This document shows, one piece after another, positions 53,625 through 63,318 of a DNA stretch of 64,000 nt. The translations under genes were made by a program, and so were the position numbers. Each line of letters begins with the position of its first letter. Position 1 is the first letter of the stretch. This DNA comes from SAR202 cluster bacterium bin87 (lineage in GTDB: Bacteria > Chloroflexota > Dehalococcoidia > Lucifugimonadales > UBA3495). The DNA lies in the NCBI GenBank assembly GCA_002238825.1, contig MPNC01000014.1, positions 1-64,000 of the forward strand, in the 5' to 3' direction. The notes under the pieces were generated by a model. That model ran no database searches. It saw only the letters and a list, made by a program, of their open reading frames with translations, and was not told the DNA's origin.

Positions 53625-53744
53625 CCATCGGGTGCTCCTCGTTTCGGGTTGGTTTCTTGTTTCAAAAACCATTATCCTCGAAGCCGGGAGCACTTTCTCA
53701 CCCCTTCAGCACCCCGCCACATTCATCTCTGCGGTGGATTCGGG

Positions 53745-53912
53745 CTAACGTTCTGCGCCGGATGACGCGTCCCGCCAGATATGCTCGTCGGCAACGATAT
53801 ACCCCGCTTCTTCGGCTGCTGCCCGGCACGCCAGTTCTTGAGTCTCCAGCGATGTGCCGGAACGGCTTTGTGCACTGGTGCTGACTCTTTTATAGACTCC
53901 GGTACGCATCAT
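53745..53912 (-). pseudogene. Serine recombinase N-terminal fragment
   Basis: MMRTGVYKRVSTSAQSRSGT then SLETQELACRAAAEEAGYIV and WRDASSGAER, ending at a stop. This is the first ~55 residues of a resolvase domain with the catalytic Ser (RVST, Ser11) retained. The remainder is missing, the neighbour being the IS1380 relic. Confidence 0.75.
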
Positions 53913-53975
53913 ACGACATCCTGATTTGTGAACTAAATTCTGAAGATCCCTCGGCGACCAAACCGTCGCTGCTTG

Positions 53976-54021
53976 ACCGAAGGCCGCCCAGACCACGCTT
54001 TAGGGCTGAGCGGCCTTCGGT
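53976..54021 (-). terminator. 12-bp-stem hairpin
   Basis: ACCGAAGGCCGC ... GCGGCCTTCGGT, 22-nt loop. It follows the minus-strand 54032 gene. Confidence 0.55.
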
Positions 54022-54031
54022 ACGGGCCCAA

Positions 54032-54595
54032 TCAACCTTGGGGGTTTTTTCGGGTGTAGCGCGACAGCACGTGTGAGACCCATCGTCGCTTGCTGCCTCC
54101 GTCCGGAAGCCGGTACCACCGCACCCTGACGTTGGACCCACACCGAGAGGACCAACCGGGATCGTCGACCGGCGTTGTGGGCAGAGATTCAACGCTGTCA
54201 TGGCGCACAACGTCTGATTGGTGCGCAATGTCAGGATAGCCCTGCGATTGAGTTCCCGCCGGATTGTCATTATCATGCGGGCCAGACGACTGCGGCCCGA
54301 ACCGGTCCAGGTGGTGGGCCGCGCCGGAGCTGCCAAACTCACGCGGCCCTTTTTGTTTGCTCGTCATAAGACTTCTCCTATTGATTTCGTCGTCCGGAAG
54401 CCGCGCCGCAGGTCTGCCAGGAGCAGCAATTGCGCCGTGCCGCGGACCGCTGGCAGTTTCACGCCAGACATGTTGGTCATCAACCTCGCAGCCGTCAGCG
54501 GCAGCCCGTGCCCGGCATGCCGCCTGCTGAGCATAGAAAGACTTATTTCCCTCCGGGTCGGGGTTGATACAGCGAGCGTAAATTCCGACAGCCAT
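54032..54595 (-). CDS. Inactive resolvase N-domain fused to a small accessory domain
   Basis: One 188-codon frame from the ATG at 54595. Residues 1-~55 resemble the resolvase start (VGIYARCINPDPEGNKSFYAQ, ACRARAAADGCEVDDQHVWRE), but Ile replaces the catalytic Ser after the Arg. From the internal ATG at 54367 (AGGAG 7 nt upstream), a 111-residue part ends in GWSSRCGSNVRVRWYRLPDG and KRRWVSHVLSRYTR. That part is homologous to the independent gene at 57339-57671. It could be translated as a fusion, as the internal product, or both. Function unknown. Confidence 0.6.
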   Translation of the reverse strand: MAVGIYARCINPDPEGNKSFYAQQAACRARAAADGCEVDDQHVWRETASGPRHGAIAAPGRPAARLPDDEINRRSLMTSKQKGPREFGSSGAAHHLDRFGPQSSGPHDNDNPAGTQSQGYPDIAHQSDVVRHDSVESLPTTPVDDPGWSSRCGSNVRVRWYRLPDGGSKRRWVSHVLSRYTRKNPQG

Positions 54596-54664
54596 TCTCA
54601 TCCTCCGCGCAAAGTGCGCTCACCCAGGAGGCTGCGTGGAATACGCAGTCAGTAGCGCGGAAGC

Positions 54665-55006
54665 CTACTGGCCCTGCACGAAATGCACCTCCACATCGCG
54701 CGACTTGAACTCGCGCATCAGCATCAGCAGATCGACGAAGTCACGAGACAATCGTGCGAGATCGTCAACAAACAGCGCGTCAAATTCGCCATTTGCTGCC
54801 ATGAGGCGCACCTTGTTCATCTGTGGCCGGTCCAGGTCTGAACCCGAACCAACCTCGGTGAGAATGTCCCTAGAGCCGATCACGTACCCCAGGGATTCCG
54901 CCAGCTTGGTGCATGCCTCAACCTGTGCGTACAGCGGCGCTCTGCCTTCCTGTCCTAGGGTTGCACTTCGGGCGTATATTTTCCCCTTCCTTTCCTTTGC
55001 CGACAT
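54665..55006 (-). CDS. Stand-alone resolvase domain, catalytic Ser replaced
   Basis: 113 residues covering only the resolvase fold: KIYARSATLGQEGRAPLYAQ, VEACTKLAESLGYVIG, DRPQMNKVRLMAANGEFDALF, VDDLARLSRDFVDLLMLMREF. The position of the nucleophile (Arg-x-Ser) holds Ala, while the later Arg residues (ARLSRD) remain. It has a perfect ribosome site (AGGAGG, 6 nt, ATG at 55006). Probably a non-catalytic, dimerising paralogue able to modulate the active recombinases; this is inference. Confidence 0.7.
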   Translation of the reverse strand: MSAKERKGKIYARSATLGQEGRAPLYAQVEACTKLAESLGYVIGSRDILTEVGSGSDLDRPQMNKVRLMAANGEFDALFVDDLARLSRDFVDLLMLMREFKSRDVEVHFVQGQ

Positions 55007-55361
55007 GTCGATCCTCCTTTCCTCCCGGGTCTTGTCCTTCCGGGTCTCGGTTGTCCCAAGTCCGCCGACTTGGCATCGGACTTTCTGCGTTCGACCGCTC
55101 TGCGATCTCGTGCAGACCGTCTCCCATGATGTACCGCCTATAGATCACCTGAAGTCCCGGTTCTTTGACCGAAATCGCGACTAGATGCCGTCTGGGTGCT
55201 ATGCCGGCGGCCTTTCAGTCATTTTACCCTGACCGCGGTCTTGGCAAATCGGACGTCCGATCCGCCAAGACTGCGATGATCTTTTTGCCTCACCGAAGAA
55301 TATTACCGAGACTTTAGCACCGGGTGTCCCGCGTCAACCATATTTGCCTATTTGGCGTCAA
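55007..55361. promoter_or_regulatory. Leader of the minus-strand recombinase genes
   Basis: No gene. It contains the 34-bp dyad at 55238-55271. Its position before the 55006 gene fits a promoter/operator or recombination site. Confidence 0.45.
55238..55271. repeat. 34-bp dyad-symmetric site
   Basis: GTCTTGGCAAATCGGAC directly followed by GTCCGATCCGCCAAGAC: 17-bp arms, 15 of 17 positions symmetric, no spacer. This is the size and symmetry of a serine recombinase crossover site or a repressor operator. Confidence 0.6.
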
Positions 55362-55566
55362 TCAGTTTTGCCGGTTCACCTCCTCGGCCGCGGCAGTCTC
55401 GCCCCGTTGCTGTGCTGCGTCAGTCCGGTAGCTGGGGACGTCAAACTCCAGGATGACGGAGTGGTGGACGACCCGGTCGATGGCCGCGGCGGTGGCCATG
55501 GGGTTGGCGAATTTTCCTTGCCGCCGGCTGCTGACGACGGTGGGCCGGCCGCAGGTGTGTTGGTGC
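55362..55566 (-). pseudogene. IstB C-terminal relic (third IS21-type element)
   Basis: RPTVVSSRRQGKFANPMATA, then AIDRVVHHSVILEFDVPSYRTD and a stop at 55362. This is the end of an IstB-like ATPase (TSN....W....GD...A.A.LDRLLHH). Only the last ~65 residues remain. Confidence 0.7.
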
Positions 55567-55748
55567 GGTTCGGGAGCGTCGGCCGGCTACTCGGTGACGG
55601 CCGGCGCCGTGAGGGTTACCGATAGCGGCCAACTGCGCGACGGTTTTTGAAACGACCGGTTGAGGTCCTCCGCGCGGGATTTCTCCCCTGCCGGTCAGGT
55701 CAGTTTGCTCTGTATCTGTACTTCTTCCGAGTTTCCGGCACGCTCCGG

Positions 55749-55964
55749 TTACGGCGACTGGGCAGGTCCAAGGACCCGGTAGCCATTCTTCTCCTCTGTC
55801 CGCTCAGCCATCGGCAATATCTCGACCACCACATTGGCTAGGCCGACGACCTCGCCGTTCTCGGCGAATCTGTAGCCATCACCGATTGCGCCGCTCCAGG
55901 TTATTCCGTAGAGGCAGTCCCTGAACGCATCGGCGTCCTGGTCGTCGTCGGTGATTAACGACAA
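55749..55964 (-). CDS. Hypothetical 71-aa protein
   Basis: Frame SLITDDDQDADAFRDCLYGI, SGAIGDGYRFAENGEVVGLAN, VVVEILPMAERTEEKNGYRV. It looks protein-like (regular hydrophobic spacing, acid-rich), but the TTG start lacks a strong ribosome site and it lies inside the IS21 relic. Low certainty. Confidence 0.3.
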   Translation of the reverse strand: MSLITDDDQDADAFRDCLYGITWSGAIGDGYRFAENGEVVGLANVVVEILPMAERTEEKNGYRVLGPAQSP

Positions 55965-56652
55965 TAGGGGGTGCGGGCGCGCCGATCTGGCTGCCGCCGA
56001 CGATTCCTTGTCGGCCGCACGTCTCCCCGGGCCGATCCCGGAGGGGACACGACGCACGTCGCCCGGGCCGATCCCGGAGGGGACACGACGCACGTCGCCC
56101 CGGGCCGATACCAGACGACAGGCTCTCTTGGCGGCGTGTCCGCCATCCGCACCGTGGTCTTGCTGCGCTTGCACCAATTCCCCTTCAGCGCGAAACGCCG
56201 CAGCGGCGGGTCCGATACCTGGCATCCCCGCATGGCCAGCAGCTCGTGGATTCGGGTCATCTGCGGCCGGTCTTTGGTGATCCACTGGTAGATCTGGTCC
56301 GACCACGGCTCCAATTGGTCCTGCCGAGGCATCGCCAGCCGGCTCAGTTGGTCCTCGGTCGTCGCCGGCCCACCTTGCGTGATGCCCTGCAACTCTCAGG
56401 CTTACCCATTTTGTCATCGCGCGGAGCGAATCGACGGGGTGATCTCGTTACTACAGTAGCGTTCCTTGCCTCAACGAGATTGCCGCGCTTCGCTCGCAAT
56501 GACGGTTCCAGTGAAACTGGGTACGCATGAGCCTGCAACCGCGCCGCCGCCAGGCACTTGCGTACCGTATTGCGCGACAACCCGGTGCCCGTCGCGGTCC
56601 GCCGCTGACTGTTTCCCGCCTTCCAAAGGCGGATGACTTCTCGTAGCTCCAT
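55955..56652 (-). pseudogene. IstA relic interrupted by a small palindromic element
   Basis: MELREVIRLWKAGNSQRRTA then GTGLSRNTVRKCLAAARLQ is an IstA HTH. After the 56413-56503 element another frame gives LEPWSDQIYQWITKDRPQMT, RIHELLAMRGCQVSD, RRFALKGN and TTVRMADTPPREPV, the next part of an IstA. The catalytic domain is lost. A 36-bp tandem duplication (56029-56100) lies in its remains. Confidence 0.7.
56413..56503. repeat. MITE-like / palindromic repeat element
   Basis: Outer ends GTCATCGCGCGGAGCGAA (left) and GTCATTGCGAGCGAAGCG (right, inverted), with an internal CTACAGTAG dyad and CAACGAGATTGCC. These are the familiar GTCATTGCGAG...GCAATCTC repeats scattered through many bacterial genomes. 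Non-coding. Confidence 0.65.
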
Positions 56653-56808
56653 TCGGTGAACCTACCGGTACGCCATCGCTGCACCTCAATGTCGAAGTGC
56701 AACAATGGTCGCCGATCTGGCCCCCCAAGTGGACTAATGACCCTGTGAATCTGTGTTGCTGTTCTACGATTCTGTCATCAGCTAACTGGTCAGCGAAAAT
56801 GTCACCCC

Positions 56809-56979
56809 ATGATGGAAGTGACATTGAAACAGCGAGAACAGGCAAGGATCAAAGTGCTCAACACCGTACTGGAATACCACCTTCCCATCGCCCAGGCCGC
56901 CGAGATCATGGGAGTCAGTGAACGCCACACCAAGCGCCTGGTGGCGGCCTACCGCAAGGACGGTCCTGCGGCGCTCGAA
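56809..56979 (+). pseudogene. Transposase HTH N-terminus, truncated
   Basis: KVLNTVLEYHLPIAQAAEIMG, VSERHTKRLVAAYRKDGPAALE is the N-terminal HTH of ISNCY/IS481-type transposases (V..VLEG..T..QAAE.LG.S.RQ.KRL...YR..G..GL). It is followed within 10 nt by the palindrome at 56977 and a stop, with no catalytic domain. Confidence 0.6.
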
Positions 56980-57002
56980 TTTGTGACGTGCGTCACAAAT
57001 TC
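56977..57002. promoter_or_regulatory. 26-bp perfect palindrome
   Basis: GAATTTGTGACG, TG, CGTCACAAATTC. It sits upstream of the plus-strand recombinase cluster and is A+T-rich at its ends, like an operator for a dimeric regulator (core GTGACG..CGTCAC). Confidence 0.55.
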
Positions 57003-57184
57003 AGTCGGGTCCTTGCATGGGCCTGGCCGTCGGGGGCTAGATTAGAAACGCCACGGCCCAGGACCACCATGCCCCTGGCCGAGCATCCGAAACGGCTTGC
57101 CCACAGCAGTGGGCGATCGAAGCATCTCCCTCGCGATGATTCGAAACGACGTCCGATTTGCAAAATCGCGGTTACGGTAGAATT

Positions 57185-57337
57185 ATGAACGGACATGGCC
57201 AACCCGGGCACTTAGTTGCGAAATCGGCCAAGGCCAGCCCGATACAGGAGGTGAAAACCGAATTTGCAAGACGTCTAGCGCACGGGCTTTGCACTGGGCG
57301 CGACGCTAGCACCGCGTTTACCGAAAAGGAGCATTAG
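57185..57337 (+). CDS. Possible 50-aa small basic protein
   Basis: An ATG at 57185 lies just after a TTGCAA/TAGAAT promoter-like pair (57160-57182), perhaps too close for it. The frame reads SPIQEVKTEFARRLAHGLC, DASTAFTEKEH and stops 1 nt before the 57339 ATG. An internal GTG also exists. Candidate recombination-directionality or regulatory peptide, by position only. Confidence 0.3.
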   Translation: MNGHGQPGHLVAKSAKASPIQEVKTEFARRLAHGLCTGRDASTAFTEKEH

Positions 57338-57338
57338 C

Positions 57339-57671
57339 ATGAGCAACGAGATTGGGCCGCACAGAGTTGGACGCTGCGGTACGGCCCTCGACACGAGCCG
57401 AAATGGCTCTCCATCGGTCGCCTTCGATGATAGCGAAAGCGCTATCGCAACGCAAGGCGCTGATGCCGCGGGCCACGACGAGATAGCCGGCGCCGGCTCC
57501 CCAACGGGAGCCTCACCTCCGGCTTTCCCCATCATCTATGATTCCGGCTGGGCCGCCCAGGGGGGATTCCAAGTCCGGGTGCAGTGGCGCGGAGTCCCCG
57601 ACGACGGCCGCCGCCGGAGGTTCTTCAGGGACATCCTGTCGCGCACGCCCGTCCCTGGCAGCCAAGAATAA
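57339..57671 (+). CDS. Recombinase-associated accessory protein, 110 aa
   Basis: The N-terminal ~60 residues are variable and polar. The C-terminal ~45 residues (YDSGWAAQGGFQVRVQWRGV, PDDGRRRRFFRDILSR) are basic and homologous to the tail of the 54032 gene (DPGWSSRCGSNVRVRWYRLP, DGGSKRRWVSHVLSR). AAGGAG lies 7 nt before the ATG. In both places it sits beside serine-recombinase genes. Possibly DNA- or recombinase-binding. Not recognised as a named family. Confidence 0.6.
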   Translation: MSNEIGPHRVGRCGTALDTSRNGSPSVAFDDSESAIATQGADAAGHDEIAGAGSPTGASPPAFPIIYDSGWAAQGGFQVRVQWRGVPDDGRRRRFFRDILSRTPVPGSQE

Positions 57672-57750
57672 TCACTCATGGCGCCCAGGGCCTTTCGGGT
57701 CCGGAATGCCGGCTCTCAGGTCCTGGGCCCACCACCTTCAGGATCACATC

Positions 57751-58171
57751 ATGAAGCGCGGAGCAATGTACGTCCGGACCGGCAGCCTCACGATGGATGG
57801 AGAGGTAGAGGCATCGCTTCGTCATCAGTGCGTCGCCTGACGGGACCCCTGATGATCGAATTCGACGCAGAGGGTCTGCCCGCCCTACTGGTCAGACCCC
57901 TGGACCTCGGTACCCGATGGTGCGCTCGGTTCCGGAGAAGTTCGACCAACCCATTACATCAATACCGGGTGCGTCGCAACGGCCTAGCACCGATTGCCTA
58001 TCTCACACCATTGGAGTAACCATGATTGTCCGAGAGATCTTCGATCGGGCGATATCAGGGGAGGCCCTGTCCCACATCGCCCAAGATTTGAACCGGCACG
58101 GAGTGCCGACGAAGCAAGCCGGCCGTTGGGCGGCTACTTACGTCAAGGCAATGCTTCGTCGGACTTCATAA
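57751..58171 (+). pseudogene. Decayed serine recombinase
   Basis: MKRGAMYVRTGSLTMDGEVEA (N-terminus, Ser lost), a degraded middle, then MIVREIFDRAISGEALSHIA and QDLNRHGVPTKQAGRW of the DNA-binding 'recombinase' domain, ending ...MLRRTS. The latter block is ~70% identical to the 58257 protein. Large deletions and frameshifts. Confidence 0.7.
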
Positions 58172-58256
58172 CTATGGGGTCCATCACTGCTTGCCATCAA
58201 TGCCGAATACATCGCGATATTCGGTTCCCAAATCAACTCAAACCCTAGGAGGAACT

Positions 58257-59101
58257 ATGATCGCAGCGATCTACGTGACCGAATCAGAGACCACGAGTTC
58301 GTCGTGCTCCGCCCAAGAAGCTGCATGCCGCGCCGCGGCCGCTGCTGCGGGTTACGAAGTCGTCGGCGGTCAGGTCTGGCGGGAAATACGCTCCGGCGTG
58401 ACCGCCGACCGGCCGCAGTTGGACCACATGATGGCCGCAGTCCAAAAAGGTCAGATAGACACAATTTGGGTATGCGCACCGGCTTGCGCAATCGAAATCA
58501 TCAACCGCCTCCACGATATCGGTATCCAACCCGAGGTTGCCCTGACATGTGAACGGTCAGATGTAATCAACTTCCTCGCCGCTGGACGGCGGGCTGAGCA
58601 GCAAAGACGCGCCTGGGCGGAGCGGTCACAGAGGGGAAAGGAAGCAGTCGCTCAACAAGATCGTCTACCGGTCGGCACCATCGTGTTCGGGTACGACTAC
58701 GACGCCAGCAGCAAGCGCCGGGTCGTCAACTTTTCCGAAGCGGTGATTGTTCGAGAAATATTCGACAGGGTGATAGCAGGGGAAGGCCTTTCCCGCATCG
58801 CCCAAGATTTGAACCGGCGCGGCGTGCCGACAAAACGCGGCGACCGTTGGGTGGGCGCCGCCGTAAAGGCACTTGTCCAACGCACTTCCTACTACGGAGT
58901 GGATTACTACGGTGGTTCACGTCGTATTGGGACAGGCTCAACAAAATCGGCACGTGTTGAAGTCCCTCACGAAGAGTGGGTGAAGATCGAGGGCTACTCT
59001 CCGACCATTGTCGACAGAAAGATCTTCGAAGCCGCTCAGAACGCATTGCGGGCGCAAGGACGTATCCTACCTCCGAACGGTCGCCAGTCCGACGGGTCCT
59101 G
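58257..59101 (+). CDS. Serine recombinase paralogue, catalytically impaired and short
   Basis: 281 residues from the ATG at 58257 (AGGAGG upstream). The resolvase domain is degenerate: IYVTESETT in place of IYxRVSxxx (Ser10 kept, Arg8 lost), and CAPACAIEIIN in place of the DRLSRD block. The recombinase domain is intact (VREIFDRVIAGEGLSRIAQD, LNRRGVPTKRGDRWVGAAVK, YYGVDYYGGSRR). The zinc-ribbon and coiled-coil parts are absent. It should still bind att-like DNA but not cleave it; a competitor or regulator of the active enzymes is plausible. Confidence 0.75.
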
Positions 59102-59154
59102 AGTCGGGTATCTCGATGCGCTAGGCCTGCTGCCCGGTCGCGTGCAGATGGTCA

Positions 59155-59179
59155 GGGAGCGTGGCGTTGCCACGCTCCC
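59155..59179 (+). terminator. Perfect hairpin terminator
   Basis: GGGAGCGTGGC, GTT, GCCACGCTCCC, 53 nt after the 58257 gene's stop. It isolates that gene from the active recombinases. Confidence 0.65.
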
Positions 59180-59435
59180 GTTGGCACAGCGATGCAGACT
59201 GACCCCGTTCTCCCGACCAGAACGCTCCCAATTTCGTGGTCGGGGAGCGTAAAGGATGACGCAGTCACCATATGGAGACGGCGGTGATTTTTCGGGGGCG
59301 CGCGTCAAACTCCCACTGACAAGACCAGACCAAAGAACGGAGCCGGGGCGTTATGGAACCGCCGGCTCGGTGGCACCGATGACGCACAATAAGGCCGAAT
59401 GGAGACCCAGATGAATTTTATGACCGACAACCCTA

Positions 59436-59456
59436 GGCAACCTCCCGAGGGTTGCC
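59436..59456. repeat. Hairpin upstream of the 59491 rec gene
   Basis: GGCAACC, TCCCGAG, GGTTGCC, 35 nt before the start; could occlude or pause the transcript. Confidence 0.4.
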
Positions 59457-59490
59457 GCTTCGCCCCGGGAAACCGCGGCATTGGTACGCC

Positions 59491-61002
59491 ATGAGAGCAG
59501 CGATATACCTGAGAGTCAGCACCCAACAACAAAGCGACTGGGGCACGTCACTCGATAGCCAAGAAGCCCGTTGCAGAGCGGTTGCGGCTGAGTCCGGATA
59601 TGAAGTGCTCGACAAGCACATCTTTCGCGACGTCGGTTCTGGAACGAACCTCGAACGGGATGGACTCTCCGCTTTGCGGCGGGCCGTTCAGCAAAGGGAG
59701 GTGGACGCTATATGGATTCATGATACGGACCGCATCGCCAGGAACGCTGTCGATTTTATGACCATCTTTCGGGAATTTTTGGATCACGACGTCTCTCTGA
59801 AATCCGTCCGCAAAGCAGTGAACACAGGCCCCTACGGCGACCTGATCGCATTTATCGACGCCTGGGTTGATGAGCAAGAGCACAAATCCATTTTACGGAG
59901 GTCGAAAGATGGCAAGAACCACTCGGCCAGAGGAGGGCTCCTCAGGATCGGCGATCTCCGAGGTATCTACGGGTATGACTACGTACCCGAGACGAAAGGA
60001 AGGGTCATCAACCAAAACGAGGCAGAAATCGTACGGGAAATTTTCGCCAGAGTAACCGCAGGCGACAGTTCCAACTCAATCGCACGTGATTTGCAGAGAC
60101 GCGGCGTCCCCACGAAACGGGGCGGATTGTGGGACTTTTCGACCATCAAGGCGATTGTGAATCGCACCTCCTATTATGGGCTGGATCTGTACTGCCGCAC
60201 CCGTCGTCAGGTCGTGAATGGCAAGGTCAAAAGGGTCAAATTGCCAGAACAGGATTGGATCCGAGCGTACGACTACTCGCCGGCAATTATCACTCAGCAG
60301 GAGTATGAGGCAGCCCACCAGTCCCTCCAGGCAAAGAACAGGAGACGACCCAGAAAGGGACACCACCCGTTGAACGGGTACGTTACTTGCGGAGCATGTG
60401 GCGGGAAAGTCTCTGGACGCTCCAGTATCTATTACCGCTGCGTGCGGTCTGTTGCCAAAAGGAACTCACCGAAGCGGTGCGACGCCGGACACATCAGGAA
60501 GGACGCTCTCGAAATGTGGGTATGGGCAACGGTGTGCGCCACGATCCGGGATCCCCAAACGATTTTCCCTATTCTGTTTCCCAGAATGATGGGTGACCCC
60601 GAGCAAATCGAAGCCAAGCTCGCGGCAACGCACCGGGCAATTGAGCAGAACGAACGGCATCATCATCAATTACTCGATCTTTGGCAGTCGGACACGATAG
60701 AGGACGCCGTTCTCCACGCCGGTCTCGCAGACCTGAGGGCAGAATGGGAACAACTGCAACAAGACGTTGAGGAGTTGGAAAACCAACGGTCCAAGTCCCT
60801 TGACCTAGCCGCACGTGCGGCCCAGTTTACACGCGCGTGCAGGGAGGTTGCTGACCGAGTAGATCGTTTCAATCCCGAAGAATTGCCAGCAATCCTCTCC
60901 ACATTTGGCGTACGCATCACGGCGACTAGGGAAAAGGCCACATGCACCATATCCGTTGACCCGGACACCGTTGCCGGCACTTTATCGCCTGTGGTCCGTT
61001 AA
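59491..61002 (+). CDS. Large serine recombinase, complete
   Basis: 503 residues, the normal size of large serine integrases. Resolvase domain AAIYLRVSTQQQ (catalytic Ser10), IHDTDRIARNAVDF. Recombinase domain VREIFARVTAGDSSNSIARD, RRGVPTKRGGLWDFSTIK. Zinc ribbon YVTCGACGGKVSG ... RCDAGHI. Long coiled coil (residues ~375-460) and the tail GTLSPVVR. A resolvase Arg in the DRIAR block is kept. Expected to catalyse site-specific integration/excision. The ATG at 59491 aligns with the paralogues. Confidence 0.9.
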   Translation: MRAAIYLRVSTQQQSDWGTSLDSQEARCRAVAAESGYEVLDKHIFRDVGSGTNLERDGLSALRRAVQQREVDAIWIHDTDRIARNAVDFMTIFREFLDHDVSLKSVRKAVNTGPYGDLIAFIDAWVDEQEHKSILRRSKDGKNHSARGGLLRIGDLRGIYGYDYVPETKGRVINQNEAEIVREIFARVTAGDSSNSIARDLQRRGVPTKRGGLWDFSTIKAIVNRTSYYGLDLYCRTRRQVVNGKVKRVKLPEQDWIRAYDYSPAIITQQEYEAAHQSLQAKNRRRPRKGHHPLNGYVTCGACGGKVSGRSSIYYRCVRSVAKRNSPKRCDAGHIRKDALEMWVWATVCATIRDPQTIFPILFPRMMGDPEQIEAKLAATHRAIEQNERHHHQLLDLWQSDTIEDAVLHAGLADLRAEWEQLQQDVEELENQRSKSLDLAARAAQFTRACREVADRVDRFNPEELPAILSTFGVRITATREKATCTISVDPDTVAGTLSPVVR

Positions 61003-61124
61003 CGCAGAAACTGTCCAGCACCTGCACCGGGGTGCGATCATGCAATGGCATATCGTAGCAGCACGGAAACAACAAGCTGCGAGTGACCTGAACAATTCAC
61101 CCGAAATCAAAAAAGGAGTCCAAC

Positions 61125-62672
61125 ATGATCGCTGCCACATATTCGAGAGTCAGCACGACGCAGCAGGAAGAAGGAACGTCGCTAGCATCTCAAGAATTGA
61201 GGTGCCGCCAAGAGGCGGAAAAAGACGGCTACACCGTCCCTGAACGATTGATGTGGAGAGACCAAGCGAGCGGCGCGGATTTGCACAGGGACGCCCTGAA
61301 TGAAGTGCGTCGCGCTGCAAAAGAAGGGGAGTTCAACGCGCTGTATGTGTACGCTATCGACCGCCTATCGAGAGAACCCTTAGAACTCGGAACGCTTCTG
61401 AAAGAATTTGAGGAAATTGGGGTCCATGTGCATTTTGTCGTAGATCACATAGGCGACGGTACGGAGGCACCATTGATCGCTTACGTTCTTGGCCACGCTG
61501 CCAAGCAGGAACGGTTGCGATTCAGGGAGCGCAGTATGAGGGGAAAGGAGACTGTTGCCAGAGAAGGGAAGCGACTGCCTCATGGAGACGGAAAGGGAGT
61601 ATTAGGCTACAGATACGACCCAATCACAAAAAAAAGAACCGTCATTCCGGAGGAAGCAAAAATCGTCAAAAGGATATTCCACGAGGTGGCTGAGGGCCAC
61701 ACGCTCAATGGAATCCGCAATAGCCTCATGGACGACGGTATCCCGACCAAACAGGGCAACAAGGTCTGGCACGTCACGACGTTGCGACAGATTCTCAGTC
61801 ACACCATGTACATCGGGGTTGACACTTACGGGAAAAATCGTGTCATAACTTCCAACAAGACCACGGAGGACAAGACAAAGAGAGGCGAGCCCAAGAAAAG
61901 AATTTTTCCGCAGCCTGAGAGCGATTGGATTTGGATCACGGGATATACGGAGCCCATCATCACTCGGGAAGAATGGGACGCGGCCCAGGCCCAACTCGCC
62001 AGGCACCAATCGGTCCGTAGAGAAGGACAGAAAGTCAATTTCCTGACGGGAATTGTGACCTGCGGCGCTTGCGGCCACGCTGTCAGATCAGCGCATCTGA
62101 AATATTATCGCTGCCAGAAAACTCATACGGGAAGGCACATTGAGCGCACATGTTACGAGTCCAATATCCCCAAATCAGCGTTGGAGAATTTGGTGTGGGA
62201 GAAGTTTTGCGATATGCTCCTCCAGCCTGACGCTCTTCTAAACGCGGTCCGATCCACCATGGAAACGGCACACCGAGACTTGCCTGCCGAGATAGATGAG
62301 GCCAGGAGAGCACTCGAAAAAACTGAACGCCAATACGGCCAGTTGCTGGATCTGAAAGGAGCAGTGCCAGAGACAGTATTCGACGACCGCCTCAAAAGGC
62401 TAAATGACCAACATCATCACCAGCAGGTTGAGTTGGAAACTCTCGGACGCCTGCAAGAAAACCAAGTCGATGTCGCTTCTGAGGAAGCCGGAATCCTCAA
62501 AAGGTGTCAGGAGGTTGCCGCCAGAATTGACGCAGCAGATGACGAGGAAAAAGGGAAAGCACTCAGGCTATTTGGAGCGAGCGTCGTCGCGACCCGTGAG
62601 AGAGTGGAAATCCAGCTGGCGGTGGACTTTCACTCAAATAGTGTGACCGTTTTATCGCCATCAACAGGTTGA
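61125..62672 (+). CDS. Large serine recombinase, complete, at the element border
   Basis: 515 residues. Resolvase domain ATYSRVSTTQQEEGTS (Ser10), YAIDRLSREPLELG. Recombinase domain VKRIFHEVAEGHTLNGIRN, DDGIPTKQGNKVWHV. Zinc ribbon VTCGACGHAVRSA ... ERTCYESN. Coiled coil (~390-470) and the tail TVLSPSTG. GGAG at ~10 nt before the ATG at 61125. Its 3' end runs into the disrupted channel gene on the other strand, so it is at one end of an integrated element. Only ~30% like its neighbour, so the two act on different sites. Confidence 0.9.
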   Translation: MIAATYSRVSTTQQEEGTSLASQELRCRQEAEKDGYTVPERLMWRDQASGADLHRDALNEVRRAAKEGEFNALYVYAIDRLSREPLELGTLLKEFEEIGVHVHFVVDHIGDGTEAPLIAYVLGHAAKQERLRFRERSMRGKETVAREGKRLPHGDGKGVLGYRYDPITKKRTVIPEEAKIVKRIFHEVAEGHTLNGIRNSLMDDGIPTKQGNKVWHVTTLRQILSHTMYIGVDTYGKNRVITSNKTTEDKTKRGEPKKRIFPQPESDWIWITGYTEPIITREEWDAAQAQLARHQSVRREGQKVNFLTGIVTCGACGHAVRSAHLKYYRCQKTHTGRHIERTCYESNIPKSALENLVWEKFCDMLLQPDALLNAVRSTMETAHRDLPAEIDEARRALEKTERQYGQLLDLKGAVPETVFDDRLKRLNDQHHHQQVELETLGRLQENQVDVASEEAGILKRCQEVAARIDAADDEEKGKALRLFGASVVATRERVEIQLAVDFHSNSVTVLSPSTG

Positions 62673-63318
62673 TCACCACAAAGGTTCCGACCACCACGAA
62701 GCTGACGAAATAGACCCACGCGAAGGGATGCTTCCGCATCGCCGTGTCCATGACCTCGGTCCAGCCGTCCAGCGTGATGATGTTGAACAGGGTGAGGAGC
62801 GATATCGCGAGGCTGCCCCAATGTTCCGGATCGTGGGCGTGGAAGAGATGGAAACCCATGATGGCGTAGATGTACACCACGACGCTCATCAACATGATCA
62901 CGTGACCGACGCTTGGAATGGAGCGCACCAGCGCCGCCACGATGAGCCTCAGGTCCCGGATCGCTGAGATCAGGCGCACCACGCGGAGCAGGCGGGCCAG
63001 CCGGGCGATCATCGCAAACTGGCCGGTGGCCGGTATCAGGGCAAACACAATCACCATGAAGTCGAAGATGTTCCAGCCGTCGCGGAAATAATCCTGCATG
63101 CGCGGCCACAACGCCACCATCTTGAGGATGGCTTCAACGATGAAGATCCCCAGGGCTACCTGGTTTCCCAACTCCAGCCAATGCCCGTAGGTGTCGGCAA
63201 TGAACGCGGAAGTTTCCAGGCCCAGCAGGGCGCCGTTGACGATAATAACGGCGATGATGAAATATTCGAACCAGTTGGAGTTGACCAGGCCGGCCGAGAT
63301 TTTGACCAGTTGATTCAT
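62563..63318 (-). pseudogene. Voltage-gated cation channel, 3' end displaced by integration
   Basis: About 220 residues of a six-helix ion_trans protein: S1 FEYFIIAVIIVNGALLGLE, S4 ARLARLLRVVRLISAIRDLRL with regularly spaced Arg, pore FNIITLDGWTEVM, S6 FVSFVVVGTFVVINLLMA. At about 62655 the normal channel tail (INL.IAV..N) stops. The frame continues for ~27 unrelated residues antisense to the recombinase's 3' end. TLDGW at the filter suggests a Na+/Ca2+-type bacterial channel. Function probably lost or altered. Confidence 0.8.

Follow-up and report, generated by a model that had tools for sequence, protein, structure and literature searches.

A large serine recombinase array beside a split ion-channel gene in a Dehalococcoidia genome

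Introduction

The staphylococcal SCC is a non-phage genomic island that carries a tandem pair of large serine recombinases (LSRs), ccrA and ccrB, and is inserted at rlmH. The gin element of Bacillus cereus (girA, girB, girC and GirX) is also not a phage, and carries three serine recombinases and restriction-modification cargo; it splits gerE, undergoes developmental excision and has an identified RDF (PMC5595907). In the Dehalococcoides ssrA islands, the LSR DsiB is located at attL, with a frame that runs through the joint, and adjoins DsiA, a 200-aa serine recombinase without a DNA-binding motif (PMC3146451). The ssrA-island module also carries ParB-, Mom- and RecF-like genes, and the accretion of islands has been discussed (PMC3146451). 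Modules that contain several LSRs, split a gene or overlap attL are already known from gin, SCC and the ssrA islands.

Here, we describe a recombinase array in a window of 64,000 nucleotides, which comprises bases 1-64000 of contig C43 (82,174 bases) in a draft genome of 4.96 Mb (G000). The original prediction for this DNA was a regulated inversion or excision system not described so far, made up of catalytic and non-catalytic recombinases and a conserved partner protein.

Results

The array adjoins an ion-channel gene whose N-terminal part (Ion_trans) is found at 62665-63318 on the minus strand. When a 226-residue query from this gene was searched against 40 genomes, the matches of the best relatives stopped at residue 222, and the intact gene of one relative, G010, extends about 50 residues further. 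The lost tail was located on another contig (G000:C19:12529-12711, 97% identical), where the C-terminal part of the gene occupies G000:C19:12538-12714. The gene is whole in four congeners, in which one of its flanks corresponds to the DNA right of 62654 and the other is homologous to C19 beyond 12538; the C19-side flank is long in three of the four and short in G003. The window therefore contains one end of an insert that is flanked by attL and attR and has an intact empty site in relatives. Those relatives of the ion-channel gene that were found by name are MAGs labelled Dehalococcoidia or Chloroflexota, and the isolate names of several of them suggest, in our own reading, sponge data sets.

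Read on the gene strand, the sequence is CTG-TT-GATGGCGATAAAACGG at attL, AGCGACA-TT-CATCGCGATC at attR and CTG-TT-CATCGC at the empty sites. Since all three agree there, the crossover is placed within a 2-bp TT core at 62663-62664 (AA on the plus strand), with element DNA to the left and the ion-channel gene to the right. When attP is reconstructed from both joints, it forms an imperfect dyad centred on the core, matching at 12 of 19 positions (chance 9e-4). Because the joint, the tail and the empty sites agree on the TT core, we consider the array to be the attL-side integration module of a site-specific island in the ion-channel gene, with its other members mostly decayed remnants (probability about 0.85).

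The island spans at least C43:1-62664 and C19:1-12537, or about 75 kb assuming abutting contigs; the ends of the two contigs do not overlap, and the ends of the island lie on separate contigs of the draft assembly. Within the genus, the matches of the window's first 14 kb lie at dispersed loci and form no single syntenic block. The cargo between 11692 and 52005 is of the defence type and includes a NurA-like protein, an AAA_21 ATPase, a CAP12/Pycsar TIR protein and DNA methylases with HNH, and IS21 and other transposases are also found in this segment. A complete second copy of the disrupted ion channel (L066, G000:C19:8222-9055) is present on the island about 3.5 kb from attR. It comes from another lineage, because the tree groups it with a gene of G008 (99/97) and not with the split copy; it could compensate for the disrupted copy.

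This island is like gin in being non-phage, splitting a protein-coding gene, and having several serine recombinases and restriction-modification cargo, and its att site likewise combines an imperfect dyad with a dinucleotide core (PMC5595907). The same text gives gerE rather than an ion-channel gene as the target and an identified RDF, for which the present island has only a candidate, the partner protein P; a dead recombinase array, as found here, is not reported for gin in the accessible part of that text (PMC5595907). With the ssrA islands it has in common the class, an attL LSR whose frame runs through the joint (M7 here, DsiB there) and an adjacent second serine recombinase (PMC3146451). 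It differs from them in its target, the ion-channel gene instead of ssrA, and, unlike DsiA, the neighbouring M6 is a full LSR and the next member, M5, has kept its DNA-binding domain.

The recombinase array that had been noticed on both strands of about 9 kb is real and consists of seven LSR-family members. Pfam searches found resolvase/recombinase domains in M1, M3, M4, M5, M6 and M7, and a custom profile added M2. Two members are complete, as had been claimed: M6 (59491-61002, plus strand, 503 aa) and M7 (61125-62672, plus strand, 515 aa as integrated). Both have Resolvase, Recombinase and Zn-ribbon domains, R8, S10 in the motif RVS(10), and DRxxR, and thus the full set expected of an LSR. 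In the alignment of Ser and Arg positions that had been suggested as a check, R8, S10 and DRxxR are kept in M6 and M7 and absent in M5, and S10 is Ala in M3 and Gly in M4. The original prediction was right to see a site-specific recombination module and to tell its catalytic and non-catalytic members apart.

The 3' end of M7 enters the ion-channel gene, so that its final codons and its stop codon come from host DNA past the crossover; the frame continues through the joint and would be 574 aa long in the inferred circular form. A good Shine-Dalgarno site precedes M7 (61125), and none is obvious at M6. In the tree, M7 groups with an LSR of G003 (91/73). M6 is the sister of M5 (97/97), and the two form one clade with M4 (99/95, Recombinase domain). 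No relatives of M6 were found in a first viral scan. Across the class, nearly all of the related LSR loci (approximately 25) have one full LSR, and arrays with LSR fragments were seen among them mainly in this genus. Two LSRs related to M6 (L016 and L018, in G031 and G050, which belong to other families of the same order) adjoin a conserved gene at its 3' end; from our own reading of the sequence, we take this gene to be dnaN-like, a possible preferred target of such LSRs. The M6/M7 pair is like that of SCC in being a tandem LSR pair on a non-phage island, and in NCBIfam both match CcrB best. However, their scores of 97-112 bits are far below the cut-offs of 900 bits for the NCBIfam equivalogs CcrA, CcrB and CcrC, and the insertion is in the ion-channel gene and not in rlmH; by neither score nor target is this island an SCC.

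In the mechanism that we propose, the island would have inserted site-specifically by recombination of attB with attP at the TT core, splitting the ion-channel gene. M7, which overlaps attL at its 3' end, is most likely the catalyst of the crossover. M6, an LSR of another subtype, may be a co-recombinase, as in CcrA/B, or a second integrase. The island may also be mobile at present.

Transposon remnants separate the left half of the array (M1, P2, M2 and M3) from the right half (P1 and M4-M7). The DNA upstream of M3 is homologous to that upstream of P1 over about 115 bases, with a score of 68 compared to a shuffle maximum of 43 (0/2000). The right leader (57148-57255, plus strand) contains the 14-mer GACGTCCGATTTGC and a -10-like TAGAAT, and its homologue, the left leader, is at 55144-55257 on the minus strand. 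The genome contains exactly two copies of the 14-mer, one per leader. A 42-bp dyad (55234-55275) overlaps the start of the left leader. As the leaders are homologous and each half has the 14-mer and a copy of the partner, the left half represents a degraded second module in inverted orientation. The two diverged modules of one island thus have a leader, a partner and LSRs in common. The common leader, the split host gene and the attachment site at 62663-62664 are additional to the original prediction. Between the halves, an exact 36-base direct repeat (56026-56097) was observed, with two head-to-tail copies and a third, partial one.

The partner is encoded by P1 (57339-57671, plus strand, 110 aa), with a disordered N-half and a predicted three-stranded sheet in the C-half, and by P2 (54032-54367, minus strand, 111 aa). 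Both have good Shine-Dalgarno sites, and they are 31-36% identical to each other. The predicted structure (mean pLDDT 56) was too weak for a fold search. No match was found in Pfam, PHROGs or NCBIfam, and the partner was not found in 250 genomes of the order, 393 of the class, a GTDB scan, viral contigs or plasmids; a weak match lies upstream of the G003 LSR (E 0.37). In these searches, the partner, which had been supposed to be conserved, is thus not conserved beyond its two copies here. The frame at 54032 does join an LSR N-terminus of about 55 residues to the partner, as had been noted, but this fusion need not be designed, since P2 has its own ATG at 54367 and the ribosome site AGGAG. From its position, we infer that the partner may be an accessory factor, for example for directionality.

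M5 (58257-59102, plus strand) is an open LSR paralogue of 281 aa. As described before, it lacks the arginine and active-site blocks and keeps its DNA-binding domain: the Recombinase domain matches with E 1.8e-22, while R8/V9/S10 and DRxxR were lost through in-frame gaps in multiples of three. With neither the complete domain set nor the catalytic residues, it does not qualify as an LSR. Its ribosome site (58257) is strong, and a frame of 281 codons that had taken up 0.1 neutral substitutions per site would still be free of stops with a probability of about 0.06. When invariant sites were defined from five active LSRs and the start codon was corrected, 11 of 26 catalytic-domain sites and 16 of 19 Recombinase-domain sites were found to be retained in M5 (Fisher p 0.006), whereas the active M6 retains those of both domains; the DNA-binding domain is thus as well kept in M5 as in its active sister. 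With 22 LSRs, the contrast gave p values of 0.03, 0.12 and 0.15 at three thresholds and is suggestive only. The dN/dS between M4 and M5 is 0.26 over 48 codons, an average across their entire history; between most members, dN/dS is saturated. Because the Recombinase domain is preserved and the gaps are in frame, M5 is not as plain decay predicts, and it may still serve as a non-catalytic DNA-binding protein.

The remaining members are more reduced. M4 (57751-58171, plus strand) is closest to M5 and consists of an N-terminal stub (57751-57840) with S10 changed to Gly and a stop, and a Recombinase-domain piece (58025-58171), likewise with a stop, that has 76% DNA identity to 58744-58891; the piece belongs to the same decayed gene as the fragment first seen at 57751. 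M3 (54665-55006, minus strand) is a free-standing resolvase domain of 113 aa that stops after residue 113. Its nucleophile is Ala, as had been recognized (S10 to Ala), and D79 is also Ala; its nearest relative is the LSR of G003, at about 50% amino acid identity (49% over 113 codons). M2 (54434-54601, minus strand) is an N-terminal stub of about 55 aa in which the active-site Ser is absent. M1 (53745-53909, minus strand) is, as expected, an N-terminal fragment, of 54 residues, with an intact active-site motif. It ends beside a transposable-element-like end at 53733, GGTGGATTCGGGCTAA, which has a near-copy at C19:6188 and a weak transposase match beyond it. M1, M2 and M4 look like wreckage. A loss targeted at the active-site motif in M2-M4 appeared strong on five sequences and was not significant with 22.

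Good ribosome sites had been taken to argue against simple decay of the dead members. Such sites were confirmed for M5 and M3 (55006), but none is obvious at M1. The argument is rejected or without support for M1, M2 and M4; retention is possible for M5 and less so for M3. A wholly decayed LSR module, lying in several frames, is present on contig C12 of the same genome, and thus such modules do decay here. Beside it are seven tandem paralogues of a protein of about 500 aa (G000:C12:95465-106968), of which the one or two members searched had no Pfam, PHROG or NCBIfam match. A single copy of this protein adjoins the LSR of G003.

Discussion

We favour an integration module in which the members other than M6 and M7 would be what is left of past gene duplications and of an inverted second module, mostly decayed through deletion, stop codons and transposition. 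Another possible, though doubtful, explanation is that dead members were kept as regulators. M5, and perhaps M3, would then bind to DNA of the att site or of an operator, or else pair with the catalytic members, controlling integration and excision with P as a cofactor. The open 281-codon frame of M5, its gaps in threes, good ribosome site, uneven retention of invariant sites and dN/dS relative to M4 are in line with this, as is the presence of a partner with active-type and dead-type LSRs in each module. Yet the domain contrast softens with the broader LSR set, loss specific to catalytic sites is not significant in M2-M4, and no orthologue of the dead members was found in relatives. M5 also has neither the Zn-ribbon nor the coiled coil that LSRs require for site choice. 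It is unlikely that the modules of this lineage keep dead paralogues (M5 for DNA binding, M3 as a catalytic fold only) and a new partner to regulate integration or directionality, and the regulated new system of the original prediction is mostly unsupported, in addition to having the published precedents of gin, SCC and the ssrA islands.

Serial integration is a further explanation: separate islands would have arrived one after another at a single site, each leaving one LSR as its stub, with the newest beside the host gene. The intact members are indeed nearest attL and the decayed ones further in, and a tandem form has been published for the Dehalococcoides ssrA islands (PMC3146451). However, M4, M5 and M6 form a single clade, which indicates local duplication, the att half-site is not repeated between members, and the second module is inverted, making accretion rather improbable for this array. 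The idea that the array drives a DNA-inversion switch, which the two inverted modules, their common leader and the 42-bp dyad might bring to mind, is very hard to sustain, since the leaders are only about two-thirds alike, the dyad is centrally symmetric while the att core is directional, and the site of M7 has no second att-like copy, the attP half-site occurring once in the window (up to three mismatches) with no near copy elsewhere in the genome.

The integration module described here adds this branch of the Dehalococcoidia to the lineages with multi-recombinase, gene-splitting islands. It yields an explicit pair of attB and attP sites for an LSR of an uncultured Chloroflexota lineage, and M5 provides a testable case of a recombinase paralogue losing catalysis but not its DNA-binding domain.
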